Source: a virus
DNA length: 22,011 nt
Reading direction: 5' to 3' (one strand)
IMG/VR virus record: IMGVR_UViG_3300008116_005721
Coordinates: 1-22,011 of that record
Position numbers and translations under genes: made by a program. This document shows, in pieces, positions 1 to 19,511 of the stretch. Numbering within the stretch: position 1 is the first letter of the stretch; every line of letters starts with the position of its first letter. The notes below the pieces were generated by a model. That model worked only from the letters and a program-made list of their open reading frames with translations. It was not told the DNA's origin and did no database searches.

Positions 1-1
1 G

Positions 2-478
2 AAAGTTGATAAAGCAGGAGATAAATCCGTTAGCTTAAAATTAAGTTCCGATGATACGGAAACATCGTATCAGTTGGCTGATTTGGGTGTTATCCCTCCG
101 GTTCCAGATTTGAAGGCGTTGCCTGATTTTGGTATTACAATTGATATGACATCACAAATGGTAGACCGTTTCATCAAAGCAAAGGGTGCATTGAGTGATG
201 TAGATACTTTCACAATCTTTACAGAAGGTGGTGATTTGAAAATGGCAATTGGTTATTCTTCAATTTCGACAAACAGAGTAACATTCACAGCAATTAAGGG
301 ATTTGATGGTGAAGTAAAACCAATCTCATTCTCTTCAAAATATTTAAAGGAAATTCTTACAGCAAACAAAGAAGCAACTAATGCTAAATTAAAAGTTTCA
401 ACTGATGGTTTATCAAATGTTGAATTCCAAATTGATGATTTTGTATGTAAGTATTATTTAGTAGAAATTTCAAATTAA
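2..478 (+). CDS. 45: DNA polymerase sliding clamp, gp45-like (5' end outside window)
   Basis: The C-terminal 158 codons of a T4-type sliding clamp, the trimeric ring that tethers the phage DNA polymerase to the template and, in T4, also activates late transcription. The frame is open to the left edge of the window, so the true start lies outside; the TTG at 74 is only an internal codon. The visible part has the usual clamp layout: a linker rich in I/P/L (VIPPVPDLKALP), then a second domain of alternating beta strands with a helix that reads as a ring-lining helix (MVDRFIKAKGAL) and a late KYLKEILTANKEA helix before the closing strands. Similarity to gp45 is weak by eye, but the position just upstream of clamp-loader genes follows the T4 45-44-62 order. 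Four bases separate its stop from the next ATG. Confidence 0.75.
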   Translation, partial: KVDKAGDKSVSLKLSSDDTETSYQLADLGVIPPVPDLKALPDFGITIDMTSQMVDRFIKAKGALSDVDTFTIFTEGGDLKMAIGYSSISTNRVTFTAIKGFDGEVKPISFSSKYLKEILTANKEATNAKLKVSTDGLSNVEFQIDDFVCKYYLVEISN

Positions 479-482
479 TAAA

Positions 483-800
483 ATGACAAACGAACAATTA
501 GAATTATTCCCAATAGAGGAAGAACAATTACAAGGTAGTGTAGAAATTGAACAACCAAAAACAATTGGAGATGCTGAATGGTGTTTTCAATTTTTTAATA
601 ACGAACCTGTAGTATTTGGTTGGCAAGGTGAAAATACAGAACCATCACCATTGGTATTACAACTACAACCAATGGAAGGTGATGTGTTGACATTTAAACA
701 AAATGGTATGGAATTTAAAATATTCGCAAGACCAATTTCCGAAGATACAAAACAAATTAGAAAAGAACAAGAAAAAGAAAATGGAGATAGTAAAGATTAA
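483..800 (+). CDS. Small unknown protein with N-terminal clamp-binding-like motif
   Basis: A 105-residue acidic protein of no family I recognise. Residues 5-10 read QLELFP, which fits the bacterial sliding-clamp (beta) binding pentapeptide QL(S/D)LF closely, and the gene sits directly behind the sliding clamp. The middle (about 30-85) looks like a small beta-rich domain (AEWCFQFFNNEPVVFGWQG; LQPMEGDVLTFKQNG), and the tail is charged and probably disordered (KQIRKEQEKENGDSKD). The gene overlaps the start of dut by 20 bases, suggesting translational coupling. The role is unknown; binding the phage or host clamp is an inference from the motif and position only. Confidence 0.7.
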   Translation: MTNEQLELFPIEEEQLQGSVEIEQPKTIGDAEWCFQFFNNEPVVFGWQGENTEPSPLVLQLQPMEGDVLTFKQNGMEFKIFARPISEDTKQIRKEQEKENGDSKD

Positions 801-1224
801 AAAGCTACATAAAGATGCTGTAATTCCACAATATGCAAAGTATGGGGATGCCGGAATGGATTTGGTGGCAACATCAATCATATCTAATACAACATTTGAT
901 GTAACCTATGGAATGGGTATTGCATTAGAAATACCTGAAGGATTTGTAGGATTGATATTCCCTCGTTCATCAATTAGAAAAACTGATTTAGCATTAACAA
1001 ACTGCGTTGGTGTAATTGATAGTGGATATAGAGGTGAACTACAAGCTACATTCAAAAAGGTATATGGAAAAAATGATATTCGAATTGATGAAGTTGATTA
1101 CAAAGTGGGTGATAGAATTGCACAAATCATAATCCTACCATATCCAACAATCAGATTTGAAGAAGTAGAACAATTATCTAACACCGAAAGAGGCGAAGGT
1201 GGATTCGGTTCAACTGGAAATTAA
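781..1224 (+). CDS. dut: dUTP diphosphatase (trimeric dUTPase)
   Basis: Hydrolyses dUTP to dUMP and pyrophosphate, which keeps uracil out of phage DNA and supplies dUMP for dTMP synthesis. At 147 residues it has the length of the homotrimeric family, and all five motifs are visible: I, DAGMDL (23-28); II, PRSSIR (61-66); III, GVIDSGYRGEL (77-87) with the catalytic Asp80 and Tyr83; IV, the GDRIAQ region; and V, the RGEGGFGSTG tail that closes over the substrate. The frame is open upstream to 703, but ATG 781 is chosen because motif I then lies at the normal distance from the N terminus and the upstream codons encode a low-complexity lysine-rich stretch inside the preceding gene. Gene 44 follows after one base. 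Confidence 0.95.
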   Translation: MEIVKIKKLHKDAVIPQYAKYGDAGMDLVATSIISNTTFDVTYGMGIALEIPEGFVGLIFPRSSIRKTDLALTNCVGVIDSGYRGELQATFKKVYGKNDIRIDEVDYKVGDRIAQIIILPYPTIRFEEVEQLSNTERGEGGFGSTGN

Positions 1225-1225
1225 T

Positions 1226-1978
1226 ATGAGTTTTTTCGCAAACGATATAAACAAAAGAGAACATAGTTTGTGGGTGGAGAAATACCGCCCACAAACTCTT
1301 GCTGACTATGTTGGTAATGAGACCATCAAAGAAACAATTCAGCAATATTTAGATGCCAATGATATACCACATCTATTGTTGTATGGAAAAGCCGGCACAG
1401 GTAAAACAACATTGGCAAAGTTAATCGTAAACACTATCAAATGTGACTTTATGATTATTAACGCATCGGATGAAAACAATGTGGATACCGTAAGAACGAA
1501 GGTAAAGAACTTCGCATCATCGGTAGGTTTCGCAGGATTTAAAGTGATTATCCTTGATGAGTTTGATTATATGACACCGGGAGCACAGGCAATCCTTCGT
1601 AACTTAATGGAAACATTCAGTAAGCATTGTCGTTTCATCTTAACTTGTAACTATATTGAGAAAATCATTGACCCTATCCAAAGTAGATGTCAGTCTTTCG
1701 CAATTACACCTCCAACTAAAAAGGATGTAGCAGTTCAAGTAGCAAAGATATTGGATTCCGAAAAAATTAAGTATGAACCAAAGAATATGGCCGATGTGAT
1801 TAATTCATATTATCCAGATATCCGTAGAATACTTAACACTTGTCAATTACAATCTGCAAAGGGAGAATTGAAAGTAGACCACAAAGTGATGGTTGAATCA
1901 AACTTCCAAACGAAATTGATTGACCTATTAAAATCAAATGATGACAAACGTAATTTGTTTATGAAGATTCAAACGTAA
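1226..1978 (+). CDS. 44: Clamp loader ATPase subunit, gp44-like, apparently truncated in the collar domain
   Basis: AAA+ ATPase of the T4-type clamp loader, which with gp62 opens the gp45 ring and loads it at primer-template junctions. Visible in order: the RFC-like N terminus (LWVEKYRP, 15-22), Walker A GKAGTGKTT (54-62), Walker B VIILDEFD (107-114), the sensor-1 region (ILTCNY) and the SRC arginine-finger motif (153-155), then the lid domain. The ATPase part is intact. The frame stops after 250 codons, whereas T4 gp44 has 319, so most of the C-terminal collar domain that holds the loader together is missing. A matching C-terminal remnant lies in another frame at 1954-2079 (separate entry). 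ATG 1226 is chosen over the upstream in-frame ATG at 1199 because it sits one base behind dut and gives the standard N terminus. Confidence 0.9.
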   Translation: MSFFANDINKREHSLWVEKYRPQTLADYVGNETIKETIQQYLDANDIPHLLLYGKAGTGKTTLAKLIVNTIKCDFMIINASDENNVDTVRTKVKNFASSVGFAGFKVIILDEFDYMTPGAQAILRNLMETFSKHCRFILTCNYIEKIIDPIQSRCQSFAITPPTKKDVAVQVAKILDSEKIKYEPKNMADVINSYYPDIRRILNTCQLQSAKGELKVDHKVMVESNFQTKLIDLLKSNDDKRNLFMKIQT

Positions 1979-2079
1979 TCCTAACTATTGCAGATGGATT
2001 ATCCAAAGATGCATTAGTAGTAGATAAAGAAATCGTATTTATGAGTACAATTATTCAAATTTTAAATATTATAAAATAA
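1954..2079 (+). pseudogene. Out-of-frame remnant of the gp44 collar-domain C terminus
   Basis: No start codon of its own is evident. The frame, shifted relative to the gp44 gene, is open for 41 codons from 1954 to a TAA at 2077-2079. It encodes ILTIADGLSKDALVVDKEIV from 1978, followed by FMSTIIQILNIIK. From memory this resembles the last helices of T4-like gp44 proteins, which end with an IAN/IAD segment, a short helix, a VADxEI-type stretch and a hydrophobic helix. Its stop overlaps the ATG of the next gene (TAATG), the junction expected of the true end of gene 44. By rough comparison with T4 gp44 about 25-30 codons between the two pieces are missing, and the frame is also shifted. A real deletion, an assembly or sequencing error, or a removed insertion could all explain it. 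Confidence 0.6.
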
Positions 2080-2321
2080 TGGAACAACAAGGACAAGGGT
2101 TACCAATGAATTTCAAATTAACAGATGCAAGAGAAATGCTCTGTGAGTGTGGTAATGATACATTTATGCCAGGTTTTAGATTTAGAAAGGTATCACGTTT
2201 AATTACAGGTGGTGCAAAAGATAGTATACTTCCAATTGAAATGTACCTTTGTACACAATGTGGTAAACCTTTGCAAGACCTTTTGCCTGATGAATTAAAA
2301 GATAAAAAAATTATAGAATAA
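2079..2321 (+). CDS. Small zinc-ribbon protein
   Basis: An 80-residue protein with two cysteine pairs, C22/C24 (CECG) and C58/C61 (CTQCG), a pattern that fits a single zinc ribbon. A basic segment between them (FRFRKVSRLITGG, 33-45) could contact nucleic acid. Small proteins of similar layout lie between or beside genes 44 and 62 in marine T4-like phages, as far as I recall, but their role is not known to me. It overlaps the remnant end of gene 44 and the start of gene 62 by single TAATG junctions, so it belongs to the replication transcription unit. Function is unassigned; a regulatory or nucleic-acid-binding role is only plausible. Confidence 0.75.
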   Translation: MEQQGQGLPMNFKLTDAREMLCECGNDTFMPGFRFRKVSRLITGGAKDSILPIEMYLCTQCGKPLQDLLPDELKDKKIIE

Positions 2322-2773
2322 TGGCAGTTAAAAAGTTATTTGACCATTTAAACGCAATAACAGCAGAGCAAGACCCAAAGTATTTTGAAAAACTTTCCGA
2401 AGAAGATTTGAAATCATGGAGTAACTTTATGATTAATCGTTTTCTTTCTATGAAACCAGAGTGGGTTGAGTTGATTGCAACTTTACTACCTTTGACGCAA
2501 ACCCTGCAACCAAAGGAAATGTATAAGTTGTATATTAGTGTTATTCCAAAAGGCAAATACTTTTTAAAATATATAAAAGGAAAATCAGCTGACAAATACG
2601 AAGATTTTTTAGTTGAATTAATTAAAAAAGATTTTCAATGTTCGGAAAAAGAAGCATTGGAATATATAGAAGTTCTTTACTCAACTAGAGAAGGTAGAGA
2701 AAATATAAAATATATTTGCGAAAAATATGGAACTGATAAAAAACAAATAACTAAATTGAAATTAAAGATATAA
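2321..2773 (+). CDS. 62: Clamp loader small subunit, gp62-like
   Basis: A 150-residue, mostly helical protein. The conserved-looking core is NRFLSMKPEWVELIATLL (about 39-56), a YKLYISVIPKGKYFLKYIKG stretch and the following helical SEKEALEYIEVL segment. This pattern (NRxLS, then IPxxKxxxKYIK) is what I remember of the short gp62 proteins of T4-like marine phages; T4 gp62 itself is longer at 187 residues. In the clamp loader one gp62 joins four gp44 subunits. The position after gp44 supports the call. If gp44 here is genuinely truncated in its collar, how the two subunits assemble becomes an open question. Confidence 0.8.
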   Translation: MAVKKLFDHLNAITAEQDPKYFEKLSEEDLKSWSNFMINRFLSMKPEWVELIATLLPLTQTLQPKEMYKLYISVIPKGKYFLKYIKGKSADKYEDFLVELIKKDFQCSEKEALEYIEVLYSTREGRENIKYICEKYGTDKKQITKLKLKI

Positions 2774-2792
2774 TATTTATTATAAAACTATT

Positions 2793-3524
2793 ATGAATAT
2801 TAACTTTAATGATGCAAAAGATTCATTTTTAAAAAATGGATATTGTTCTTTTAATTTAAAAGATTTTGATTTAGAATTTTTTGAATTTATAAAAAACTTT
2901 CTTAATTGTTCTGAAGAAAAAAATTTAAGTGAAATTTTCTTGAAAGCAAGATTTGATGCAAACGATTTACAAACAACCTTTCAATATAAGACTTTTGAAG
3001 AAATGGAAAATTTCAAAAAAAGTTTAATAGAAAAATACGATTGGTATCAAAAAGATGGTATAACACCAAATACAACACAATGTTGGTATTATTGCCATAC
3101 AATAGATGTACATGATTATTTGAAAAAAAATTCAAATTATAAAATTTCAAACTTAAATAAATACATAAGTGATAAAATAAATAATATTGTAAAATATTTT
3201 TATGATTTATCGGATACAGCAAAAATAAATAATAACGAACTGATGTTTAGTTTATACAATAAAGATTGTAGATTTACACAACATCAGGATGGTGTTGGAG
3301 TAAACTATTGTTCAATTATTATCTATTTGAACGAAAATTATAAAGCAGAAAATGGCGGCCTTTTATTATTAAATGATGAAAACGTAGTTCCTGAAATTGG
3401 TAATGTTGCTATTATGGATTTATCAAAACACAACATTAGACATGGCGTATCAAAAGTAACAGGAGGACCTGGAAGATTCGCAATACTATGTTTTCCTATT
3501 TTAGAAGGTGAAAAATTAGTATAA
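2793..3524 (+). CDS. Fe(II)/2-oxoglutarate-dependent oxygenase (copy 1)
   Basis: A 243-residue protein of the prolyl-4-hydroxylase-like 2OG oxygenase type. The metal triad is visible as H164-x-D166 (QHQDG) and H217 (IRHGV), and R228 (GGPGRF) is placed to bind the 2-oxoglutarate carboxylate. Between them lies the double-stranded beta-helix core (IIIYLNENY, NGGLLLLND, PEIGNVAIMDL). Such enzymes hydroxylate protein side chains, sugars or nucleobases; the substrate here is unknown. The N-terminal 100 residues (GYCSFNLKDFDLEFF) are shared with the oxygenase at 15009, so these two form a paralogue pair. It starts 19 bases after gene 62, behind an AT-rich gap. Confidence 0.88.
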   Translation: MNINFNDAKDSFLKNGYCSFNLKDFDLEFFEFIKNFLNCSEEKNLSEIFLKARFDANDLQTTFQYKTFEEMENFKKSLIEKYDWYQKDGITPNTTQCWYYCHTIDVHDYLKKNSNYKISNLNKYISDKINNIVKYFYDLSDTAKINNNELMFSLYNKDCRFTQHQDGVGVNYCSIIIYLNENYKAENGGLLLLNDENVVPEIGNVAIMDLSKHNIRHGVSKVTGGPGRFAILCFPILEGEKLV

Positions 3525-3538
3525 ATTAATATTAATTT
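3523..3538. repeat. 16-bp perfect AT-rich palindrome
   Basis: AAATTAATATTAATTT is self-complementary over all 16 bases. It overlaps the stop codon of the oxygenase gene and the TTTG of the candidate promoter at 3536. It could be an operator, but in such AT-rich DNA a chance palindrome is possible. Confidence 0.45.
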
Positions 3539-3567
3539 GGTAAATACAAATAAAATGGTTATATTAG
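3536..3567 (+). promoter_or_regulatory. Candidate Bacteroidetes-type promoter before the nuclease gene
   Basis: TTTG (3536-3539), 20 bases, then TATATTAG (3560-3567), close to the Bacteroidetes primary-sigma consensus TTTG / TAnnTTTG. The second element ends 4 bases before the ATG at 3572, so any transcript would have almost no leader. The same spacing recurs at 19458 and 21569. Confidence 0.5.
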
Positions 3568-3571
3568 ATAT

Positions 3572-4435
3572 ATGGCAAGAGTATCATTTTCACAATATAG
3601 TATGTGGAGTAGTTGTCCACAACAATACAAATTAGCATACATAGATGGATTATCACAATCCACATCTAATATACATTCCGTATTTGGAACGGCAATGCAT
3701 GAAACACTTCAACACTATTTAGATAAGTGTTTAAGAATATCCAAATCACAAGCTGATAAGATGATTGATTTAAAGGAATATCTCAAAGAGAGAATGAGAG
3801 AAACCTATGTTAAAGATTCTGCAGGCGGAACTCTGAACGTTTGTACTAAAGAGGAAATGGTTGAGTTTTTAGAAGATGGTAATGTTCTTTTAGATTGGTT
3901 TCAAAAATCTAAAAACTTCAATAAGTTCTTTTCACTTAAGCATGATGAATTGGTTGCAATTGAACAACCAATTAATACTAAAATTGCAGAGGGTGTAAAC
4001 TTTATGGGGTTTATAGATTTGATTATCAGAGATACATTTACAGGTAAGTATCGTATTATAGATTTCAAAACATCAACAGCTGGTTGGAGTAAATATCAAA
4101 AATCAGACCCAGTCAAAAATTCACAAATACTTCTTTACAAAAAGTTCTATGCAGAGTTGATTGGTATTTCCGAAGATATGATTGATGTGGAATTTATTAT
4201 ATTAAAACGTAAGGTGACAATCAGAGAGGATATACCAACACATCGAATGAGTAAACATATTCCTGCAAATGGAAAACCATCCATAAACAAAGCATGGACA
4301 GGATTTAAAGGATTTGTGGAAAGTGTATTTGATGAAACGGGTAATTACCGATTGGGTATAAACTATCACAAAAAACCATCGAAGTTATGTGGTTGGTGTG
4401 AATTTTATGGAACACATTGTGATGGAAAAAATTAA
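3572..4435 (+). CDS. PD-(D/E)XK nuclease, RecB/Cas4-like, with predicted 4Fe-4S cluster
   Basis: A 287-residue exonuclease-type protein. The nuclease core shows H43 (GTAMHETL), D149 (GFIDLII) and D164-x-K166 (IIDFKTS), in the order of the RecB/AddB/Cas4 superfamily. Cysteines stand in the places that bind a 4Fe-4S cluster in AddB and Cas4: C15 (WSSCPQQY) near the N terminus and C273, C276 and C283 near the C terminus (CGWC, then THC). The likely job is DNA end processing in recombination, repair or replication. Cas4 of a CRISPR system is unlikely because no cas genes or array are nearby. It lies between the first oxygenase and the glycan locus and probably has its own promoter. The cluster may be supplied by the IscU/IscA pair encoded 15 kb downstream (inference). 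Confidence 0.87.
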   Translation: MARVSFSQYSMWSSCPQQYKLAYIDGLSQSTSNIHSVFGTAMHETLQHYLDKCLRISKSQADKMIDLKEYLKERMRETYVKDSAGGTLNVCTKEEMVEFLEDGNVLLDWFQKSKNFNKFFSLKHDELVAIEQPINTKIAEGVNFMGFIDLIIRDTFTGKYRIIDFKTSTAGWSKYQKSDPVKNSQILLYKKFYAELIGISEDMIDVEFIILKRKVTIREDIPTHRMSKHIPANGKPSINKAWTGFKGFVESVFDETGNYRLGINYHKKPSKLCGWCEFYGTHCDGKN

Positions 4436-4464
4436 GTAAAAACAATATATATTTAAAATTAGTT

Positions 4465-5712
4465 ATGGCAAAAAAGAAAATTCTGTTATTATCTGATGAC
4501 CTCCGAATGGCGAGTGGTATCGCAAATGTTTCAAAACAATTAGTATTAGGAACGGTTGATAAGTATGATTGGGTACAATTAGGGGCAGCAATCAAACATC
4601 CTGAAGCCGGTAAAGTTATGGATTTGAGTGAAGATGTTAGAAAGAAAACCGGAGTTGAAGATGCAAATGTAAAAATTTACCCATCGGATGGTTATGGAAA
4701 TCCCGATATGATTAGGCAGTTATTGATGATTGAAAAGCCTGATGCAATCCTACACTTTACCGACCCTCGTTATTGGATTTGGTTATATGAAATGGCACAT
4801 GAAATCCGCCAATCAGTTCCACTATTCTTTTATCACATTTGGGATGATTTGCCAGACCCAAAATACAACAGAGATTATTACGAAAGTTGTGATTGGATTG
4901 GATGCATTTCAAAACAAACTTATGGTATTACCAAAAGAGTTTGGGGATGGGATAAAGAAAAGTATTGGAACAGACCACAAAATTGGCAAGTAAGTTATGT
5001 ACCACATGGTATCAATTCGGAAGATTACAAACCTATAGAAGTTCCTGAAGATTTTAAAAAAAGTATCTTTGGTGATAAAGAATATGATTTTGTTCTTTAT
5101 TGGTCAAATAGAAACATTCGTAGAAAACAACCAATGGATGCAATGCTTGCTTTTGATGAATTTAGACAAACATTAAGACCAGAACAGCAAGATAGAGTTT
5201 GTATGGTAATGCATACATCTCCTGTTGATGAAAATGGTACAGATTTACCTAAATTTATTGAACATTGTATACCTGATTCTAAAATCATATTTGCATCAAA
5301 TCGTTACACCGAACAAGAACTTAATTATCTTTATAATTTGGCAGATGTTACAATCAACGTTGCATCCAATGAAGGATTTGGATTGGCAACCGCAGAATCG
5401 GTTATGGCGGGTACACCGATTATTGTAAATGTAACGGGTGGTATGCAAGACCAATGTGGATTTAGAGTAAAAGGTAGTGGTAAGTTATTAACCGCAGAAG
5501 ATTATGTAGAAATTGGTTCTTTGCATGACCGTTATAAAAAGAACACACATGGAAGAGAAGCAAGAAAAGAAGCAGGAATGAAAGGTAGAAAATGGATGTT
5601 AGGAGAAGGAAATTTAAGTAGAGAATATATGTGCCAATCTTTAATAGATGGTATGGAAGGAGCATTTGCAAATTGGAAACCTATTAAAAAATATCAATTA
5701 GTTACAATATGA
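4465..5712 (+). CDS. Glycosyltransferase, GT-B fold, GT4-like
   Basis: 415 residues. The N-terminal half (KKILLLSDDLRMASGIANVS) looks like the acceptor-binding Rossmann domain, and the C-terminal half has the nucleotide-sugar site with the EX7E motif at E303 and E311 (NEGFGLATAESV) followed by AGTPIIVN. This is the retaining GT4 pattern; the sugar donor and acceptor cannot be read from the sequence. It opens the 10.5-kb glycan locus, 29 bases after the nuclease gene; the gap contains TATATTTA at 4448-4455 but no TTG at the right distance. Its stop overlaps the next start in an ATGA, so the two GT-B genes are probably translationally coupled. Confidence 0.9.
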   Translation: MAKKKILLLSDDLRMASGIANVSKQLVLGTVDKYDWVQLGAAIKHPEAGKVMDLSEDVRKKTGVEDANVKIYPSDGYGNPDMIRQLLMIEKPDAILHFTDPRYWIWLYEMAHEIRQSVPLFFYHIWDDLPDPKYNRDYYESCDWIGCISKQTYGITKRVWGWDKEKYWNRPQNWQVSYVPHGINSEDYKPIEVPEDFKKSIFGDKEYDFVLYWSNRNIRRKQPMDAMLAFDEFRQTLRPEQQDRVCMVMHTSPVDENGTDLPKFIEHCIPDSKIIFASNRYTEQELNYLYNLADVTINVASNEGFGLATAESVMAGTPIIVNVTGGMQDQCGFRVKGSGKLLTAEDYVEIGSLHDRYKKNTHGREARKEAGMKGRKWMLGEGNLSREYMCQSLIDGMEGAFANWKPIKKYQLVTI

Positions 5713-6977
5713 AACCAACATTAGTATTTCAAGCACCAGTAGCAACAAGAAGTGGGTATGGTGACCACGCGAGAGACCTATTACACTCTCTTTACAAATT
5801 GGATAAATTTGATATTAAAATTATCAGTACTCGTTGGGGAATTACACCAATGGATGCATTGAATTATAATAACGAATTTCATAAATGGATTGTAGATAAT
5901 ATTATACCAAACATTCAGCAAAAGCCAGATATTTACATTCAAGTTACAGTTCCAAATGAATTTCAACCAATTGGATATTATAATATTGGTATTACAGCTG
6001 GTATTGAAACAACAGCATGTGCACTAGATTGGATTCAAGGATGTAACAGAATGGATTTAATTATAACACCATCAGAACATGCAAAGAAAAGTTTAGTAGG
6101 AACTGTTTACAACGAAGCAAATCAACAAACAGGTCAATTGATTAGGCAACACAAAATTGAAAAACCTGTTGAGGTTCTTTTTGAAGGATTTAATGAAATG
6201 GATTTCGGAACAGATACGGTTGCAACCATCGATGTGTTAGATGAAATAAAAGAAGATTTCGCATTTCTATTCGTAGGACATTGGTTAAGAGGTGATTTGG
6301 GAGAAGATAGAAAGAATGTAGGAATGATGATTAAAACATTCGCAATGGCGTTTAAAGATGAGAAAGTAAAACCAGCATTGGTATTAAAAACATCATCAGC
6401 TACATTTAGTGTTTTAGATAGAGAAAATACGATTAAAAAAATTAGAGAAGCATTGGGAAAAGATTATGGTAAAGTTCCTGTATACCTTATACACGGTGAT
6501 ATGCAGCCATATGAATTGAATGGATTATATGAACACCCAAAAGTAAAAGCAATGTTAAACTTCACAAAAGGTGAAGGATTTGGTAGACCTTTATTAGAAT
6601 TCAGTTTGACAGGTAAGCCTGTGATTGTTTCTAATTGGAGTGGGCATTTAGATTTCTTAAAAGAAGGTGCGGTATTGTTAGAAGGTGAATTGAAAAATGT
6701 ACACGAATCGGCAGCAGACCAATTCCTATTAAAAGAATCACAATGGTTTAATGTAAATATTTCAAAAGCATTGCAAAGTATTAAAGATGTTTATAAAAAT
6801 TATGATAAGTATAAAGTTGCATCTTTTCAATTGGGTAAACAAAATAAGCAAAATTTCAGTTTGGAAAAAATGACTAAATTGTTTGATACTATTTTAAATC
6901 AGTATGGTATTTATAGTAAGATACAACCAAAGTTTCAACAAATACAATTACCAAAACTTAAAATGTTAAATAAGTAA
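5709..6977 (+). CDS. Glycosyltransferase, GT-B fold, GT4-like
   Basis: 422 residues with a second retaining GT4-type signature: E289 and E297 form EX7E (GEGFGRPLLEFS), followed by TGKPVIVSNWSGHLDF. The N terminus (LVFQAPVATRSGYGDHARDLL) reads as the glycine-rich start of the GT-B acceptor domain. It is similar in size and architecture to the gene before it but not a close copy. The start overlaps the previous stop (ATGA), and the stop overlaps the next start (TAATG). Sugar specificity is unknown. Confidence 0.9.
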   Translation: MKPTLVFQAPVATRSGYGDHARDLLHSLYKLDKFDIKIISTRWGITPMDALNYNNEFHKWIVDNIIPNIQQKPDIYIQVTVPNEFQPIGYYNIGITAGIETTACALDWIQGCNRMDLIITPSEHAKKSLVGTVYNEANQQTGQLIRQHKIEKPVEVLFEGFNEMDFGTDTVATIDVLDEIKEDFAFLFVGHWLRGDLGEDRKNVGMMIKTFAMAFKDEKVKPALVLKTSSATFSVLDRENTIKKIREALGKDYGKVPVYLIHGDMQPYELNGLYEHPKVKAMLNFTKGEGFGRPLLEFSLTGKPVIVSNWSGHLDFLKEGAVLLEGELKNVHESAADQFLLKESQWFNVNISKALQSIKDVYKNYDKYKVASFQLGKQNKQNFSLEKMTKLFDTILNQYGIYSKIQPKFQQIQLPKLKMLNK

Positions 6978-7450
6978 TGAGTAACTATAATCCAATATAT
7001 CGTAAATTTGTGGATGATAAAAACGTAATAGCTGCAAATAAAATGACAAGAGGTAAATTTTACCTAATAAAAGAATACGAATATATAGATGGTGAAAAAA
7101 CAAGATTTACAGAAACTACAGGACCTATTGTTTTTACGTTGTTTGTTTCTAAAACAAAAGATATTATTCATTGTATAAAAGTTTCTAATATAAACCCAAA
7201 TGCAATTAAAAGATTTTTTGGAAAATTTGTAAATGAAGAAACGGAAAGATTACAAATGAGAGGAAATGCTAAACAAATATATGAAAAAACTATAAGTAAA
7301 ATGCCTACTATAACAAGTGACTCTTATAGAACTTATAAAATAAGTGGGTTAAGAAAAGTATTAGAATTAAATATGGATGTAAACGAAATTACACCTAAAA
7401 ATAAAAATGTAGTTGGAATAGATATTAAATCACAAAAAAGAAATGTATAA
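6977..7450 (+). CDS. Unknown phage protein inside the glycan locus
   Basis: A 157-residue lysine-rich protein with no family I recognise. The middle part (ETTGPIVFTLFVSKTKDIIH, then CIKVSNINPNAIKRFFGKFV) looks like a compact alpha/beta domain, and the tail is basic. It shows no glycosyltransferase motif, signal peptide or membrane segment. It is joined to the preceding gene by TAATG and lies 6 bases before the next gene, so it is co-transcribed with the glycosyltransferases, although its role need not be in sugar chemistry. Confidence 0.65.
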   Translation: MSNYNPIYRKFVDDKNVIAANKMTRGKFYLIKEYEYIDGEKTRFTETTGPIVFTLFVSKTKDIIHCIKVSNINPNAIKRFFGKFVNEETERLQMRGNAKQIYEKTISKMPTITSDSYRTYKISGLRKVLELNMDVNEITPKNKNVVGIDIKSQKRNV

Positions 7451-7456
7451 TAGGTT

Positions 7457-7723
7457 ATGACATCAAAAGAATTTGTTATTTGGTTAAAGGGATTTTCAAA
7501 AGCAGCAAACTCATATAATATTACACCTGCACAATGGGATGAAATACAAGAGGAATTAGAAAAAGTAAATGATGGTGGAGTTTCAATTGGAGTAGGCGGA
7601 CAGGGAATACCAAACGGAACTATAACAGCAACACCTGGTTATGGTACTCTTACATATAATCCATCCACATCAACTACAAATGGATATCCAAGCGGTAGTA
7701 GTTTTCATTATACAAATTTTTAA
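7457..7723 (+). CDS. Small unknown phage protein with Gly/Ser/Thr-rich tail
   Basis: 88 residues in two parts. The first 40 (KEFVIWLKGFSKAANSYNIT, then PAQWDEIQEELEKV) are helical and resemble, from memory, the N terminus of small conserved proteins of marine and Bacteroidetes T4-like phages. The rest is a low-complexity tail rich in G, T, S, P, N and Y. Function is unknown. It ends one base before the epimerase start. Confidence 0.65.
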   Translation: MTSKEFVIWLKGFSKAANSYNITPAQWDEIQEELEKVNDGGVSIGVGGQGIPNGTITATPGYGTLTYNPSTSTTNGYPSGSSFHYTNF

Positions 7724-7724
7724 T

Positions 7725-8591
7725 ATGAAAAACATATTAGTTACAGGAGGTGCCGGATTTGTTGGATATGCATTGACAAAAGAACTTATTAAAAGGGGAT
7801 ATAATGTTGATGTTTTAGATAATCTTTACATAGGTGCCAACGAAGCAGTAATTGCAGAAGGTTCTAACTTTTTAAATGGTGATGTTAGAAGTATGAATAA
7901 TATGAAAATTAAAGAGTATAAATACATATTTCATTTAGCAGCAATCAGTAGAATACAACCATCTTTTTATAAACCACAATTAACATTTTCCGTAAACGTA
8001 GATGGAACCAGACAGGTAATAGAATATACAATGCCAATTAGAGCAAAACTAATATACGCTGGGTCATCATCTCGTCATCATAATCCAATGTTATCACCAT
8101 ACGCTATGAGTAAACATATGGGTGAGGAATGGATTAAAATGTATAAAGGTATTTATGGGTTAAACGCAGAAATAGTAAGATTCTATAATGTATATGGACC
8201 AGGCGAATTAGTAGATTCTCATATGGCAGCAGTAATTGGAATTTGGAGAGCCGCAATCAAAAACGGAGAACCAATTAAAATACATGGTGATGGTGAACAA
8301 AGGAGAGATTTTACTCACATTGATGATATCGTAGATGGTTTAATCCGTATTGCGGAGAGTGATGAAAAGCATCAAGATGCGTGGGAATTAGGAACTGGTA
8401 AAAATTATTCTCTAAATGAAGTTGCCGATATGTTTGGTGATATTAGAAGGGAATATGTAGATGATGTGAGAGGTAATTATAGAGAAACATTAAGAATTAA
8501 CAATGATGCCATTGAAAGATTAGGATGGCAACCAACTGATAAATTAAAAAGTTATATAGATGAAATTAAGTTACGCAATAACAGCTTGTAA
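7725..8591 (+). CDS. NAD-dependent sugar epimerase/dehydratase (extended SDR)
   Basis: 288 residues. The N terminus carries the Rossmann glycine motif TGGAGFVG (7-14), followed by the acidic end of beta-2 (VDVLDNLY). The catalytic pair is Y126-x3-K130 (SPYAMSKHMGE) with upstream serines (GSSSRHH) as the third member, and a later RRDFTHIDDIVDGL segment is typical of nucleotide-sugar epimerases and dehydratases of the GalE/RmlB type. It probably makes or interconverts a nucleotide sugar for the neighbouring glycosyltransferases; which one cannot be told. ATG 7725 is chosen because it gives the canonical MKNILVTGG start; the frame is open 84 bases further upstream within the previous gene. Confidence 0.92.
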   Translation: MKNILVTGGAGFVGYALTKELIKRGYNVDVLDNLYIGANEAVIAEGSNFLNGDVRSMNNMKIKEYKYIFHLAAISRIQPSFYKPQLTFSVNVDGTRQVIEYTMPIRAKLIYAGSSSRHHNPMLSPYAMSKHMGEEWIKMYKGIYGLNAEIVRFYNVYGPGELVDSHMAAVIGIWRAAIKNGEPIKIHGDGEQRRDFTHIDDIVDGLIRIAESDEKHQDAWELGTGKNYSLNEVADMFGDIRREYVDDVRGNYRETLRINNDAIERLGWQPTDKLKSYIDEIKLRNNSL

Positions 8592-9183
8592 TGAGCATGA
8601 AGAGATTATAAGATTAGTTACGCAATTATTGAATTATAAGGGAGAAAATTCAGAAGTTGTAATTCTTTTAGATACACCAAAAGCACCTACTGAAATGGTT
8701 GAGTATTTGGAGTTGCAGGCAAACGCAGACCACATTACTCTAATCGAATCCGAATTTGATAATGATTTTGCACAATGGAAAAACCTATTGAACTCACAAT
8801 GTAAAGGTGAGTGGATATTTCAGTTAGATGCCGATGAATATTTAGAGCCAGATTTGATTGATAATTTGGAGGATATATTAAATAACAACGGAGATAAAGA
8901 TATGATTGTTGTTCCTCGTATTAATACGGTTGAAGGATTAACTGAAGCGCATATTCAAAAATGGGGATGGAGAGTGGATGAAAAAGGTTGGGTTAATTTC
9001 CCAGATGTTCAAACTCGTATCTACAAAAACTCTGATAAGATAGGCTGGAGTGGGAAAGTACACGAAAGAATTGTAGGATTTCAAAATTATACAGCATTTC
9101 CAACTGATGAAATTTATTGTATTAAACATCCAAAAACAATTGAAAGACAAGAAAAGCAAAACAATTATTACGATACTTTATAA
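8560..9183 (+). CDS. Glycosyltransferase, GT-A fold, GT2-like
   Basis: 207 residues. The N terminus (LSYAITACNEHEEI) is the usual GT2 opening that binds the nucleotide, and D90-A-D92 (FQLDADEYL) is the DxD-type metal site. A WSGKVHERI stretch follows, as in bacterial GT2 enzymes that transfer single sugars. The gene starts 32 bases inside the epimerase gene, and its TAATG junction couples it to the next one. Confidence 0.88.
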   Translation: MKLSYAITACNEHEEIIRLVTQLLNYKGENSEVVILLDTPKAPTEMVEYLELQANADHITLIESEFDNDFAQWKNLLNSQCKGEWIFQLDADEYLEPDLIDNLEDILNNNGDKDMIVVPRINTVEGLTEAHIQKWGWRVDEKGWVNFPDVQTRIYKNSDKIGWSGKVHERIVGFQNYTAFPTDEIYCIKHPKTIERQEKQNNYYDTL

Positions 9184-9854
9184 TGGTACACATTTATTAT
9201 CACATATATGCTATTGATGGAGTTGAATCTATAATTGATGAACAATTGACGTTGATTCAAAAATTTTTTCAATTCCCATATACATTGAATATTGGTATTT
9301 CTATTGCAGATGAAAATATAACATCGAGATATATTATTGAAAAAATTTATGGATACAATAAATTGGAATATAAGATTAAAGATATTAGATGTAAAGGAAA
9401 CGAATTTGTTACATTAGATTTGATTGAAACGGATAAAGATACATTTAAAGATGAAGATTATGTTTTTTATTTTCACACCAAAGGTGCTTCTAAAATAAAC
9501 CATGCATTTTACAATTATATTTGCGATTGGAGGAATCTATTACAATTTTTTAATATAGAAAAAGTAAATAATGTTTTTAAAATTTTTGAAAAAACTGATT
9601 GTAATACATATGGTATAAATTTATTAAGTAAAATTTATAATGAAAAGCCAACACAAATGTATGGTGGAAATTTTTGGTGGGCAAAAGCAAAATATATAAA
9701 AACAATAAATACAAAAAAATCAGATAAATTTATTAGAGTAGATGCTGAAATAAATTACATTCAAAATGGAATTGATTGGAATCCTTTTAACGCATTTAAT
9801 AGTAATGTAAACCACTATTATGAACCATATCCAAAAAATAATTATGCAAAATAA
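9183..9854 (+). CDS. Putative glycosyltransferase-like protein (HTKG/GGNFWW type)
   Basis: 223 residues. I recognise no catalytic DxD, but two signatures stand out: FYFHTKGAS (H98-T-K-G101) and YGGNFWWAKAKYI (G161-G-N-F-W-W166). Proteins with an HTKG stretch and a later GGNFWWAK stretch occur, from memory, in bacterial polysaccharide loci and in large viruses and are thought to be glycosyltransferase-like. D/N-rich segments near the end could take part in substrate binding. The position between two glycosyltransferases supports the idea, but the enzymatic role is an inference. The next gene starts inside its 3' end. Confidence 0.65.
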   Translation: MVHIYYHIYAIDGVESIIDEQLTLIQKFFQFPYTLNIGISIADENITSRYIIEKIYGYNKLEYKIKDIRCKGNEFVTLDLIETDKDTFKDEDYVFYFHTKGASKINHAFYNYICDWRNLLQFFNIEKVNNVFKIFEKTDCNTYGINLLSKIYNEKPTQMYGGNFWWAKAKYIKTINTKKSDKFIRVDAEINYIQNGIDWNPFNAFNSNVNHYYEPYPKNNYAK

Positions 9855-10740
9855 AATAACATTTATATACGATTACAAACAAGGTGAACAATGGTCGACA
9901 CCATTATCATTGGTAAATGAATTTAAAAAAAGAGGTTGGGAAACCGAAATAGTATCAATTGCTAATGGTGATGATTCCCAATTACAATTATGGATTCAGC
10001 AAGATACACATACTGATATTGTATTATTTATGGATTGGGGTAGATTTGATTCAAAGTGGTTAGATAAATCCTTAAAACCAAATGCATTTTGGATACAAGA
10101 AAGTGGAGATGACCCACAAAACTTTGAAAGAAACTTTCCAAAAGCAAATAGATTTCATTTAACCATAACACCTGCTGCAAATTCATATGAGGAATATAAA
10201 AAAAGAGGTATAAATGTTAGATGGATTACACATTGGGCAGATACTATGGTTCAATTTCCAATGAATGTTGAACCAAAATATGTTGCAGTTACAACTAGGG
10301 GACCAGGTGGTTCTCAATTTCTTGATTACCTAACAAATTGGGCAGAGGGTGTAATTGGTAATCGTAATGGTATGGGACCAAAAGAACATACTGAATTTTT
10401 AAATAGTGGATTAATCGTTATACAAAATAGTAGGTGGAGAGAGGTTACTCGTAGAATATTCGAAGGTATGGCTTGCGGTAAATTGGTTATAACAGACAGA
10501 TTACCAGATGAAGCAAAACTTTATAAATTATTTGCGGAAGGTGATGAAATCATTTTATACAACGATATGTTCGATTGTATAGAAAAAATAAATTACTATA
10601 ATGAAAATGAGCAGGAAAGAGAAAGGATAGCATTTAATGGAATGCAAAAGGTGTTAAACAATTATACGCAAATTCAAGTAGTGGATAAATTAATAGAAGA
10701 ATATGAAACGTACAGAAATAATAAACATACTAATAGCTAA
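9844..10740 (+). CDS. Glycosyltransferase, GT-B fold (CgeB/Glyco_trans_1_2-like)
   Basis: 298 residues. The C-terminal half has the pattern of the GT-B family with a RRIFEGMACGKLVITDRLPD segment, a DEIILYNDMFDCIEKI stretch and a final helical region (ERERIAFNGMQKVL), as in CgeB-like and PF13524-type glycosyltransferases. The N-terminal half (ITFIYDYKQGEQWSTPLSLV) is the other Rossmann-like domain. An in-frame ATG at 9820 would add eight residues; ATG 9844 is preferred because the protein then begins right at the first beta strand and the overlap with the previous gene is only 11 bases. The donor sugar is unknown. Confidence 0.82.
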   Translation: MQNKITFIYDYKQGEQWSTPLSLVNEFKKRGWETEIVSIANGDDSQLQLWIQQDTHTDIVLFMDWGRFDSKWLDKSLKPNAFWIQESGDDPQNFERNFPKANRFHLTITPAANSYEEYKKRGINVRWITHWADTMVQFPMNVEPKYVAVTTRGPGGSQFLDYLTNWAEGVIGNRNGMGPKEHTEFLNSGLIVIQNSRWREVTRRIFEGMACGKLVITDRLPDEAKLYKLFAEGDEIILYNDMFDCIEKINYYNENEQERERIAFNGMQKVLNNYTQIQVVDKLIEEYETYRNNKHTNS

Positions 10741-11299
10741 ATTTGGTTACAAATCTTATTTAGAAATTGGAACACAAGACCCTACATCTAATTTTGAATT
10801 AATAAATGCAAAATGTAAAGTATCAATTGACCCATTTCCGAGAGGAGAGGTTACATTCGTAGGAACATCGGATGAGTACTTTGAATCGATTTCAGAAGAT
10901 GTAAAATTTGATATAATTTTTATTGATGGATTACATCACAACGACCAAGTATTAAAAGATATAGAAAATTCATTAAATCATTTATCGGATAATGGAACGA
11001 TTGTTTGCCACGATTGTTTACCAACAACTGAAAAAATGCAGGAGAGAAATGATCATGGTGGAGAATGGACCGGAGATGTATGGAAAGCAATCGCCGAATT
11101 GCGAGTTGAAAGAATAGATTTAGATATTAGAGTAGTTGATACCGATTATGGGTGTGGTATAATTCGTAGAGGTACTAATATTCCATACGAACCAAATATT
11201 GAAAATTATAAAACATATGCATATTATTCAACGCATAGACATATGTTAAATGTTGTATCATTAGAAGAATTTATACAATGGATAAATATACAATCATAA
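10703..11299 (+). CDS. SAM-dependent methyltransferase-like protein
   Basis: 198 residues with the class-I methyltransferase layout: YLEIGTQD (E21-I-G23) as the SAM-binding first motif, an acidic end of the next strand (VSIDPFP), FDIIFIDGLHHNDQVLKDIE as the motif around the fourth strand, and GTIVCHDCLP as the following one. The IDGxHxxxxVxxDI pattern belongs to the Methyltransf_24 type often found in polysaccharide loci. It may methylate a sugar hydroxyl on the glycan built by its neighbours (inference). It overlaps the previous gene by 38 bases and the next by 22. Confidence 0.85.
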   Translation: MKRTEIINILIAKFGYKSYLEIGTQDPTSNFELINAKCKVSIDPFPRGEVTFVGTSDEYFESISEDVKFDIIFIDGLHHNDQVLKDIENSLNHLSDNGTIVCHDCLPTTEKMQERNDHGGEWTGDVWKAIAELRVERIDLDIRVVDTDYGCGIIRRGTNIPYEPNIENYKTYAYYSTHRHMLNVVSLEEFIQWINIQS

Positions 11300-11901
11300 T
11301 ACCTACACTTTGGAAATCGAATAGAACTTTTAAATTATTAACTTATTTAAAAAATTGCGAATTTGTAGATGAAATTATTATAATTGATAATAAATCTGAC
11401 AAAGTAGAAGATAAAACAGAAGGAAAAATTAGATTAATTTCATTTGGAGAAAACATATATGTTAATCCTGCATGGAATAAAGGAATTGAATTGGCAAAAA
11501 ATCAATCTATTGCATTGGTAAATGATGATATAAATTTTAATCCAAATATATTCGGTGTTATAACAAACGATATTTTATTACAATATGGTATTATTGGACA
11601 ATCTGAATTTAATTATAAAGGGAATAATTCAGATGAACCTATTTTGGAAGTATGGAATAATAAGGTTAGAGATTGGGGTTGGGGTTGTCTTATTATGTTT
11701 GATAAAACAAATTGGATAGATATTCCGGATGATATTAAAATATGGTATGGCGATGATTATATATTCAAATGCAATCCATCTCCAAAAGCCACTATGAAAA
11801 ATTTTAACATAGAAACTGAAATGAGTACAACATCCGATGAACCAGTATGGGATGAACGAAAGAGAAATGATTATACAAATTTTATAAAATATTTACAATA
11901 A
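11278..11901 (+). CDS. Glycosyltransferase, GT-A fold, GT2-like
   Basis: 207 residues. The N terminus (YTIIIPTLWKSNRTFKLL) and the strand FVDEIIIIDNKSD are typical of GT2 nucleotide binding; VNDDINF (N82-D-D84) stands at the metal-site position, and WGWGCLIMF (about 131-139) is the usual acceptor-loop strand. The short length suggests a minimal catalytic domain without membrane segments. The start lies 22 bases inside the methyltransferase gene, and the stop overlaps the next start (TAATG). Confidence 0.82.
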   Translation: MDKYTIIIPTLWKSNRTFKLLTYLKNCEFVDEIIIIDNKSDKVEDKTEGKIRLISFGENIYVNPAWNKGIELAKNQSIALVNDDINFNPNIFGVITNDILLQYGIIGQSEFNYKGNNSDEPILEVWNNKVRDWGWGCLIMFDKTNWIDIPDDIKIWYGDDYIFKCNPSPKATMKNFNIETEMSTTSDEPVWDERKRNDYTNFIKYLQ

Positions 11902-12578
11902 TGGTTACAAAAGAACAATCCGATTTTAATGCTATAATGTTAAATGCATTGTTATGGCATACGATGTCCGACAAGATAAATTTTACCGAAATAACAGGTT
12001 GGCACAATTCTCATCCTTATTTGAGATTAAACATTTATAATGGTGTTCAAATGTCGCAAGTATTGGGAGTATATCTTGCATTAAATCCAAACTACATATC
12101 TGAATTTGATAATATAATTGAAATTGGAACATATAATGGTGGATTAACATCTTGGTTATATGATAATAAAAATCCAAATGCAATGGTGGTATCATATGAT
12201 ATTGATGGGAGTATCAATCATACAAAAAGAACTGATATAGATTTCAGAGTAGAAGATTGTTTTGAAGAAAAATCATTTAATGAAATCATTTCTTATATTC
12301 AAAGACCTGGTAAAACTTTGTTCGTATGTGATGGTGGTGATAAACCAAAAGAATTCAGTATATTTTCGGAATATCTAAAAAGTGGAGATGTTATCATTGC
12401 ACACGACTATGCAAAGAATCCAGAATATTGGAAATTTGTAACCAATTATTGGCAATGGCCGTATGAATCCGATACAAATTATGATAGTATAAGAGATGCA
12501 ATTATCAAAAATGGATTAGAACCATATAGAGATGATGAATTTAATTTTTATTTGTGGACAAGTTATATTAAAAAATAA
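11901..12578 (+). CDS. SAM-dependent methyltransferase / CmcI-like protein
   Basis: 225 residues. IIEIGTYNGGLTSWL (E74-I-G76 and on) is the SAM-binding glycine loop, SYDIDG the acidic second motif, VCDGGDKPKEF the fourth-strand motif and GDVIIAHDYA the next. This is the arrangement of CmcI/Methyltransf_24-type enzymes, among them sugar O-methyltransferases; the name cephalosporin hydroxylase that is often attached to CmcI-like proteins is misleading here. It is the second methyltransferase-like gene of the glycan locus and not a copy of the first. The next gene follows after 3 bases. Confidence 0.8.
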   Translation: MVTKEQSDFNAIMLNALLWHTMSDKINFTEITGWHNSHPYLRLNIYNGVQMSQVLGVYLALNPNYISEFDNIIEIGTYNGGLTSWLYDNKNPNAMVVSYDIDGSINHTKRTDIDFRVEDCFEEKSFNEIISYIQRPGKTLFVCDGGDKPKEFSIFSEYLKSGDVIIAHDYAKNPEYWKFVTNYWQWPYESDTNYDSIRDAIIKNGLEPYRDDEFNFYLWTSYIKK

Positions 12579-12581
12579 AGT

Positions 12582-13325
12582 ATGAATAAATTACCAATTA
12601 GTATAGGAATATTGAGTTGGCATAGTGGACAAGTTTTAGTAGATACCCTAACAACATATTACAATAATGGATTATTTGATATAGTTGATGATGTAACTAT
12701 TCTTTTTCAGGAATTTAATGAACAAGATTATCAAATAGCAAAGCATTTTGGATTGAATGTTATTGGTATGAATTCTAATATTGGAATTGGAAAAGCATTT
12801 ATTAAATTAACTGAAAATGCAAAGAACGATTATGTTTTAGTATTAGAACATGATTGGAATTTAATTGAAGATAAAGAAACTACACACAATACATTGAAGA
12901 GAAGTATATCAGCAATTGAAATGGGAATGGATGTTGTCCGTTTAAGACATAGAAAGAATCCAGGTTATCCACATTTTTCATTTAGACATAAAGGTGAAGA
13001 ATTAACTTATTTCGATGAAGAAATTGGAGCAACATCACCACATCTTTTGGATTCAATACATTGGTGCGATGCTGATATTGAATTTTCAGAACAAATCAAA
13101 AAATCAGAAGATATGTTTTGGACTACATCTCGTTACGGTAATTGGACAAACAACCCATGTTTATACAAAAAACAATTTTATTTAGATGTTGTTAAACCAT
13201 TTGCTGGTGATGGAATTGCATTGGAAGGAAATATAGGTAGATGGTGGGTTCAGCAAGAATATAAAGTAGGACACAACGAAGGATTGTTCATGCATAACGA
13301 TTGGCAAAAATACGGAAGAAGATGA
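12582..13325 (+). CDS. Glycosyltransferase-like protein, GT-A fold
   Basis: 247 residues. A GT2-like start (ISIGILSWHSGQVLVDTL), the strand-helix units that follow and VLEHDWNLI (E89-H-D-W92) at the metal-site position suggest a GT-A nucleotide-sugar transferase. The segment DVVRLRHRKNPG and the acidic EGNIGRWWVQQEYKVGHNEG near the end may form the acceptor and base region. The canonical DxD is replaced by EHD, so the activity is less certain than for the other GT2 genes. Its stop overlaps the next start (ATGA). Confidence 0.72.
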   Translation: MNKLPISIGILSWHSGQVLVDTLTTYYNNGLFDIVDDVTILFQEFNEQDYQIAKHFGLNVIGMNSNIGIGKAFIKLTENAKNDYVLVLEHDWNLIEDKETTHNTLKRSISAIEMGMDVVRLRHRKNPGYPHFSFRHKGEELTYFDEEIGATSPHLLDSIHWCDADIEFSEQIKKSEDMFWTTSRYGNWTNNPCLYKKQFYLDVVKPFAGDGIALEGNIGRWWVQQEYKVGHNEGLFMHNDWQKYGRR

Positions 13326-14113
13326 AATATACAATAATAAGTTCTCTAACAAATTATGGTGTAGAGCAAATTAGACCTTTTGTAGAATCCATAAATACAT
13401 GTGGGTATAAAGGAGAAAAATTAATGTTGGTTTATAATGTATCGGAAGATGTAATACGATATTTGGATGATAATGGTTGGTTAATAGCACAATCGGAAGA
13501 ACAGCAACACATTATTTTACAAAGATTCAGAGACATGTATGCTTTACTTCAAACTTATCAAACTGATGTAATTATTTGGGTTGATGTAAAGGATATAGTA
13601 TTTCAAAAAGACCCAACCGAATGGTTAAATAAATGGATGCAAAGAGATATTTTAGCATTTAGTGAATCCTTAAAATTTGGAGATGAAGAGTGGGCCAGAT
13701 TAAATGCTGGAACCAGTTTTCCTATGGAATGGGAATGGTTACAAAAAAAAGAAATATATTGCGCAGGAACGATTGTAGGTAAAAGAGAAGCAATAAAAGA
13801 TTTGTTTATTGACATTTATAGATGGAGTTTAACAACGGCAAATCCTCAACAATTAGCCGACCAAGCTGCATATAATATTTTAATTCATATGTATCAATGG
13901 AAAGATAAAGTTCAATTTGTAAAACAACAAGAAGGATTTGCAGCTCAGTTACATTTAAAGTTAAAAAAGGGAGATACACTACCGTATACCGAAGAATTAC
14001 CAACTATTGATGGTGATGAAATTAAAAACTCAAAGGGTGAACTATATACATTAGTTCATCAATATGATAGAAACGAAGAACTTAAAAAAATAATAGAAAA
14101 CAAATACAAATGA
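13322..14113 (+). CDS. Glycosyltransferase-like protein, GT-A fold
   Basis: 263 residues. IIWVDVKDIVFQKDPTEW has D88-x2-D91, the acidic cluster found at the metal site of GT-A proteins in which a D-x-K-D-(I/V)-x-F-Q-x-D-P pattern recurs. A later YCAGTIVGKREAIKDLF segment fits the strand that carries substrate contacts, and LADQAAYNIL follows as in related transferases. Family assignment beyond GT-A-like is uncertain. ATG 13322 is chosen because it forms an ATGA overlap with the preceding stop and gives a normal beta-strand start (MKYTIISSL); an ATG seven codons upstream is less likely. Confidence 0.72.
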   Translation: MKYTIISSLTNYGVEQIRPFVESINTCGYKGEKLMLVYNVSEDVIRYLDDNGWLIAQSEEQQHIILQRFRDMYALLQTYQTDVIIWVDVKDIVFQKDPTEWLNKWMQRDILAFSESLKFGDEEWARLNAGTSFPMEWEWLQKKEIYCAGTIVGKREAIKDLFIDIYRWSLTTANPQQLADQAAYNILIHMYQWKDKVQFVKQQEGFAAQLHLKLKKGDTLPYTEELPTIDGDEIKNSKGELYTLVHQYDRNEELKKIIENKYK

Positions 14114-15012
14114 AAAAAATAGTTATAACATCTTTCGTAATGCCACATGAGTTGGATGATTTAGAAAGAGTATTGGTTGATTTGAATAAAGCATCTAAAT
14201 TTATAGATGGAATGAATTATGAATTTTATATTTCATTTTCAATTTCCGATTACTTATTTGATTGGGAAAATTCAAAAGTAGACAAACAATTCTTTATTGA
14301 TAGATTCAATTCAATGAAACCACTAACGGATTGGGCCGGTAAGGCAACATACCAAATAAGAGATGAAATATTTGGAGCATTTCAATGTAAACGATATGCA
14401 CATATGGAATGTAAAGATGCAACGCATTTTATTTGGTTGGATACTGATATTTGCTTTGATGATAAGATTCTTTATTATATGGAAGCAAGTATTGATAGAT
14501 TGAAACAAACCGACCCAAATGTTGATAAATATTTTATTACTCCTGAAATAGTAAAATATTGGGATACTACTTGGGATTGTTTAGTCAATGAAAACTACCT
14601 TAATAAAGAATTAGATTATTGCAAAACAAATAATCCATTCTCTGAAAGTGGTGAGGTTGGTGATGTTGAATTATTATCAGTAATAAACAATGTTCCCGGA
14701 CAACCAAGAACTAAATTTGGAGCAGGTTGGTTTACATTATTATCAAAGCCCCTATTAGATAGAATACCTTTGCCAGAATCAATGGGTGCGTATGGTCCTG
14801 ATGATACATTTTTAATGTGGGGTATTGAAAAATTAAATCAAACAGGAGCAAACATATATCAATTTAAATTAAAAAATTATATTGTTTGTGAAAATTATAT
14901 TTATAGAAATAGAAAACATTACGATTCTATAATCAAAAGAATTGATAGAAAAGAAGAATTTAAAAATAAAGCATTTAGTAACTTTCAATTAGAAATAGAT
15001 AAAATACAATGA
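14110..15012 (+). CDS. Glycosyltransferase, GT-A fold, GT2-like
   Basis: 300 residues. FIWLDTDICF carries the DxD motif D111-T-D113; a later GAGWFTLLSKPLLDRI strand-helix unit and the AYGPDDTFLMWG stretch (D231-D232) correspond to the acceptor and catalytic-base region of GT2-type enzymes. The N-terminal part (IVITSFVMPHELDDLERVLV) fits the nucleotide-binding half. It is the last glycosyltransferase of the locus, joined by ATGA overlaps to the genes on both sides, including the second oxygenase. Confidence 0.82.
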   Translation: MKKIVITSFVMPHELDDLERVLVDLNKASKFIDGMNYEFYISFSISDYLFDWENSKVDKQFFIDRFNSMKPLTDWAGKATYQIRDEIFGAFQCKRYAHMECKDATHFIWLDTDICFDDKILYYMEASIDRLKQTDPNVDKYFITPEIVKYWDTTWDCLVNENYLNKELDYCKTNNPFSESGEVGDVELLSVINNVPGQPRTKFGAGWFTLLSKPLLDRIPLPESMGAYGPDDTFLMWGIEKLNQTGANIYQFKLKNYIVCENYIYRNRKHYDSIIKRIDRKEEFKNKAFSNFQLEIDKIQ

Positions 15013-15830
15013 GTATCATAGAAGCAAAAAAATTTTTACAAGAAAAGGGATATTGTACTTTTAATTTAAAAGAATTTAATTCAGAATATTTTCAAACATT
15101 AAAAGAAAATTTTCAATGTAACGAAAATAAAAATTTTAAAAATGGATGTAAAAATTTAAAAGCAACTGTAAACACAAAGATAAAAACTCTAAATTTAGAA
15201 AATGATTATGTAGTTATTGAAAATAAAGTTCATGTAGATGATGTATACCAATCATTTCAAGACGCAGAAATCAAAAAAAATGAAATAATTGATTTGATAA
15301 AAAATAATAAAAATTACTTTTGCGCCCAATTGTGGTTTCACACTGCATTAAATGATGTTTTGGTAAATATCGATACTAATCTAGATTCAAAATCCAAAGA
15401 TTGTATTACAAAAATTAATTACTTAAGTGATTTTTTAGAAAAAAGTTTAGGTGATATAACTAGATATTTTTTTGATATTAATGAATCTCAAGAATTAAGT
15501 CACCTAATGGAATTTACATATTATGATAAAGGTTGTTATTTAAATAATCATTCGGATGGAACAGGAACAGGTCGAATTTGTGCAATATTGATTTATTTAA
15601 ATGAGAATTATGATGTAAACAACGGAGGAATTTTAGTTTTAAATAATGCGGATAATGTAGTTCCTGAAATTGGTAATGTTGCCATAATAGATTTACAATC
15701 ATTTGATATACCACATATGGTTACGGAAGTTACCGATGGAATTGGTAGATATGCGTTTTTATCATTTGTAAAAAGAAAAGAAGATGAGTTTATTCATTCA
15801 TATGCGGATAGAAAAAAAAGTTTAATCTAA
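15009..15830 (+). CDS. Fe(II)/2-oxoglutarate-dependent oxygenase (copy 2)
   Basis: 273 residues, a paralogue of the oxygenase at 2793. The metal ligands are H181-x-D183 (NHSDG) and H236 (IPHMV), and R247 (GIGRY) is placed for 2-oxoglutarate. Both copies share the N-terminal layout (GYCTFNLKEF here, GYCSFNLKDF there) and the core IYLNENY ... NGG ... VVPEIGNVAI. A 26-base stretch is identical in the two genes (3384-3409 and 15657-15682), including third codon positions. This copy has about 30 extra residues in the middle of the N-terminal half. It is translationally coupled to the last glycosyltransferase by ATGA, so its substrate may be the glycan or a glycosylated protein (inference). Confidence 0.88.
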   Translation: MSIIEAKKFLQEKGYCTFNLKEFNSEYFQTLKENFQCNENKNFKNGCKNLKATVNTKIKTLNLENDYVVIENKVHVDDVYQSFQDAEIKKNEIIDLIKNNKNYFCAQLWFHTALNDVLVNIDTNLDSKSKDCITKINYLSDFLEKSLGDITRYFFDINESQELSHLMEFTYYDKGCYLNNHSDGTGTGRICAILIYLNENYDVNNGGILVLNNADNVVPEIGNVAIIDLQSFDIPHMVTEVTDGIGRYAFLSFVKRKEDEFIHSYADRKKSLI

Positions 15831-15836
15831 TTTTTT

Positions 15837-15844
15837 TATATTTA
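15837..15844 (+). promoter_or_regulatory. Promoter -7-like element
   Basis: TATATTTA, the same octamer as in the candidate promoters at 19482 and 21593, lies 24 bases before the ATG at 15869 in a 38-base gap. There is no TTG 20 bases upstream (the region is A-rich), so the call is weaker. Confidence 0.3.
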
Positions 15845-15868
15845 TATCCGTATATACAACTAAAAAAT

Positions 15869-17407: not shown

Positions 17408-17410
17408 GTT

Positions 17411-17857: not shown

Positions 17858-17860
17858 TAT

Positions 17861-17889
17861 ACTTATAGTTATAATTAAATGTTATAAGT
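17861..17889. repeat. Inverted repeat abutting the start codon of the HNH-like gene
   Basis: ACTTATA (17861-17867) and TATAAGT (17883-17889) form perfect 7-base arms with a 15-base spacer; the right arm ends directly at ATG 17890. It could be an operator, for example for autoregulation by the helix-turn-helix part of the downstream protein, or an RNA hairpin covering the start. Confidence 0.4.
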
Positions 17890-19474: not shown

Positions 19475-19489
19475 TTTTACTTATATTTA
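19458..19489 (+). promoter_or_regulatory. Candidate Bacteroidetes-type promoter for iscU-iscA
   Basis: CTTG (19458-19461), 20 bases, then TATATTTA (19482-19489), with ATG 19512 about 22 bases further on. The spacing is the same as in the candidates at 3536 and 21569. The first element lies within the end of hddA. Confidence 0.5.
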
Positions 19490-19499: not shown

Positions 19500-19511
19500 T
19501 AAGATAATAAT

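Follow-up and report, generated by a model that had tools for sequence, protein, structure and literature searches.

The apparent split of the clamp-loader gene 44 in the window, i.e. the whole stretch of 22,011 nt analysed here (IMG/VR record IMGVR_UViG_3300008116_005721), is almost certainly a metagenome assembly artefact, produced by a mis-join at a tract common to two strains. The split does not matter as biology and is not a real feature. Judged from its sequence, the actual gp44 of this phage is an ordinary 315-aa T4-like clamp-loader large subunit.

The gp44 frame in the window runs from the ATG at 1226 to the TAA at 1976-1978 and comprises 250 codons (1226-1978). Downstream of this stop, the -1 frame from 1978 reads ILTIADGLSKDALVVDKEIVFMSTIIQILNIIK up to a TAA at 2077-2079 (remnant 1978-2079), which overlaps the ATG of the following ORF at 2079. 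The original prediction had described the end of the frame, a remnant resembling the end of gp44 and the overlap with the next ATG, all of which could be confirmed; the remnant is in fact identical to the C terminus of the intact 315-aa gp44 relatives. The predicted loss of 25-30 codons was close but slightly too low, as the window is 94 bp shorter in gp44 than the same strain in other contigs (31 codons plus 1 nt; residues 249-280 of 315). Because the junction lies between 1969 and 1970, the open frame ends with two codons (QT) that are read through out of frame, and only because of this join is the 3' end of gp44 out of frame. In the features listed below, strain A stands for the window and the contig G001, and strain B for the strain of contig L042, of which G006/L103 and others are intact contigs.

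1-118, no strand: contig end with the sequence of another strain (L064/L065 exact over 1-129; all 22 mismatches to G001 within 1-5551 are located here)
1226-1969, + strand: genuine 5' part of gp44, 248 codons, with the AAA+ domains and the start of the collar region (1175-1969 is 100% identical to L088, an intact contig of the same strain; clamp-loader profile phrog_168, E=2e-77)
1856-1969, + strand: 114-nt tract identical in the co-occurring strains A and B, its right edge being the putative false join (A/B comparison)
1969-1970, + strand: putative false join, 94 bp of the same-strain contigs absent, no overlap of the flanks (same-strain comparison)
1970-2079, + strand: genuine 3' end of gp44, the remnant with stop TAA 2077-2079 (100% identical to G001, L086 and L087)
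5437-5550, + strand: second A/B-common tract, also cut after 114 nt (A/B comparison)
5550-5551, + strand: second putative false join, 132 bp (44 codons, in frame) absent (comparison with same-strain G001)

Profile searches and sequence comparison were used for the identification of the gene. The gp44 piece in the window matched phrog_168 (E=2.2e-77) and Pfam AAA (E=1.5e-18), and the Walker A motif (GKAGTGKT) and DExx box of an AAA+ ATPase are present along with the clamp-loader profile. For the intact protein of the same strain (315 aa), the phrog_168 match covers residues 10-310 of 315 and reaches profile position 307 of 314 (E=1.9e-84), while T4 gp44 is matched at E=6.7e-35. The complete C-terminal collar region is present in the same-strain contigs (315 aa), but not in the window copy. 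Neighbouring genes in the window encode a dUTPase and the clamp-loader small subunit gp62, the latter at 2321-2773 (PF16790, Phage_clamp_A, E=2.1e-8; phrog_225, E=2e-17). The real 315-aa gene, which adjoins gp62, matches the T4-like gp44 large subunit (PHROG 168; T4 structures 3U5Z, 3U60 and 3U61) with no difference, whereas in the window copy the join has removed residues 249-280. Further downstream, a 2OG-Fe(II) oxygenase gene (2793-3524) is situated between the gp62 and PD-(D/E)XK nuclease genes of the window; it is absent from this position in the strain B contig L042.

Comparison of the same locus in related contigs, which had been proposed as a check, revealed a continuous 315-aa gp44 in 79 of the 80 closest IMG/VR relatives as well as in contigs of the same strain. 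In these intact proteins, the counterparts of the two window pieces are separated by about 32 residues. The sole exception among the 80 relatives was L042 (IMGVR_UViG_3300008116_005506), in which an in-frame loss of 102 bp leaves a gp44 of 281 aa. A scan of viral_contigs yielded no gp44 with a shortened junction besides L042. Three other pattern matches to the truncated junction (L082, L084 and L085) were unrelated contigs lacking a gp44 match and were rejected.

Contigs of the window strain were fetched with a pattern taken just right of the 1969/1970 junction. Three of them, all from other assemblies and encoding the 315-aa gp44, are 99.9-100% identical to the window on both sides of the junction: L088/G001 (39,466 bp, 3300031857), L086/G002 (3300032116) and L087 (3300031963). 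The junction of the window gp44 is thereby absent from same-strain sequence of independent assemblies, G001, L086 and L087 being intact. Over all of its 22 kb the window could be aligned to G001, in three blocks (1-1969, 1970-5551 and 5551-22011) separated by gaps of exactly 94 bp and 132 bp, with no other losses. Beyond position 118, no mismatches were found up to 5551 and a single one in the remaining 16.5 kb. The second gap shortens a glycosyltransferase gene (4465-5712) from 459 aa in G001 to 415 aa in the window; since the loss of 132 bp keeps the frame, it left no sign visible from the window alone. Both this loss at 5551 and the foreign origin of positions 1-118 had escaped the original prediction.

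The two losses occur at particular positions. At the gp44 locus strain B is about 87% identical to strain A, and exactly two stretches (102 and 116 bp) are missing from L042 relative to intact strain B, their left edges coinciding with those of the window losses. In this region, the intact sequences of A and B have no more than two exact tracts of at least 115 bp in common (116 and 149 bp). The window and L042 are cut in both of these, and in none of the eight A/B-common tracts of 53-96 bp. The window and L042 each have two joins in these two tracts, and L031 has one; at all five, 114 nt of the tract, counted from its start, remain in the left flank, with an ambiguity of 0-1 bp. Overall, a value of 114/115 was obtained for seven out of ten joins, against 0.17% of all positions in the same contigs, although the joins are not fully independent and the computed binomial figure is therefore not to be read literally; the three others do not follow the 114-nt rule, given the strains at hand. 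The losses vary in length (94, 132, 102, 116 and 186 bp). A rule for the exact right edges was looked for and none was found, no single constant explaining them. As these edges differ and the flanks overlap by only 0-1 bp, recombination between repeats is no explanation.

Such losses are also restricted to one group of assemblies. For this comparison, 35 contigs with near-identical partners were considered, and a loss was counted when a clean join lacked 15-400 bp. Clean-join losses were detected in the window and in four out of eight contigs of the 33000081/84xx assemblies (L027, L031, L072 and L102); the 26 contigs of other assemblies had none.

These patterns are best accounted for by a mis-join during assembly. 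Two closely related T4-like freshwater phage strains with two exact common tracts longer than 114 nt would have been present in one sample, and the assembler would have stopped extending the strain-specific contig 114 nt inside each tract, like a de Bruijn unitig at k=115. Since the end of a unitig lies k-1 nt inside a tract, the value of 114 points to k=115. The contig would then have been joined to the downstream contig of the same strain with the loss of about 100 bp. The 94-bp loss breaks the gp44 frame, while the 132-bp loss in the glycosyltransferase gene stays in frame. The losses, their positions and the intact copies in the same strain are observed directly; from these we infer the k value, the exact assembler step and the presence of both strains in the sample of the window itself. 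Assembly is known to be hampered by inter-genomic repeats (PMC6710874). As in de Bruijn-graph mis-joins at such repeats between co-occurring strains, the left flanks here end k-1 nt into exact tracts common to two strains, and only one batch of assemblies contains the losses. IDBA-UD with a maximum k of 115 is in published use (PMC8204110), whereas a paper on a Lake Erie isolate used IDBA-UD with a maximum k of 92, not 115 (PMC5647855); a search of papers for the assembly identifier found nothing. A sequence artefact was one of the options in the original prediction, and it gains strong support from the intact same-strain contigs, the 114-nt left edge and the restriction to one batch.

If a real deletion were segregating among the phages, part of gp44 would be missing from a minority of genomes, which would be defective or complemented in co-infection. 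The intact remaining flanking genes, the clean junction and the in-frame version in L042 fit this view. Against it, deletions would have had to arise independently in two strains and still share both left edges, which lie exactly 114 nt inside the only long tracts, two in number, that A and B have in common. The differing right edges, with an overlap of 0-1 bp, do not fit a homologous or microhomology-driven deletion; no contig beyond the 33000081xx batch carries such losses, and an essential replication gene would be broken. We consider it very improbable that minority genomes of this kind exist, and equally so that a low-frequency deletion in the gp44 collar and the glycosyltransferase gene recurred at the same left edges across strains. 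Slippage between direct repeats was also rejected: the 10-bp CAAACGTAAT repeat flanking the join is native and kept in both copies, of which a repeat deletion would leave one, and the flanks do not overlap. A 6-bp inverted repeat seen by eye near the edges could suggest a hairpin-driven deletion, which is unneeded given the 114-nt rule.

That an intron, intein or homing endonuclease once resided in gp44 and left a scar is extremely improbable. Inteins do occur in the gp44 of some phages, an example being the in-frame P-loop insert of LR756508.1, the only insert found, but its position at the Walker A motif is some 190 codons upstream of where the join lies. In addition, intact relatives run straight through the join site, the second join affects a glycosyltransferase gene unrelated to gp44, and no insert or insert remnant was found at the gp44 join site in the 80 relatives and five further contigs (L086-L090). 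The deletion scar or mobile intron/intein event considered in the original prediction is unsupported, and the empty, intact sites in the same strain contradict a mobile element. LR756508.1 is an uncultured 484-kb phage; its gp44 (268660-270069; L106 577-1986) carries an in-frame insert of about 150 residues at the P-loop (GTGK/C...HN/TS) that looks like a mini-intein.

Just as little credence is due to a minimal clamp loader whose collar is detached, or to recoding by frameshift or bypass that links both frames: both pieces are still in order and the remnant is conserved, but it is conserved because it is the normal end of the gp44 gene, the same strain has a continuous 315-aa gene, which leaves the detached collar proposed earlier unsupported, and with 94 bp physically absent recoding cannot restore residues 249-280. 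None of the four alternatives (real deletion, scar, recoding, detached collar) withstands the intact copies in the same strain and the 114-nt edge common to unrelated genes.

The mis-join reading calls for caution with other contigs of the IMG 33000081xx series, in which joins of about 20-215 bp, in some cases in frame, are hidden. Hidden joins can mimic truncated, split or minimal genes, so gene calls on 33000081xx contigs need care, and the 114-nt signature can serve as a simple flag. Further clean joins missing 21-215 bp were seen in 33000081xx contigs at position 1671 of L027, positions 867, 1634, 2055 and 5731 of L031, position 612 of L072 and positions 959 and 3770 of L102. The end of contig IMGVR_UViG_3300008113_007145 (L101 6573-6875) shows an inverted match to strain A, probably another assembly fault.
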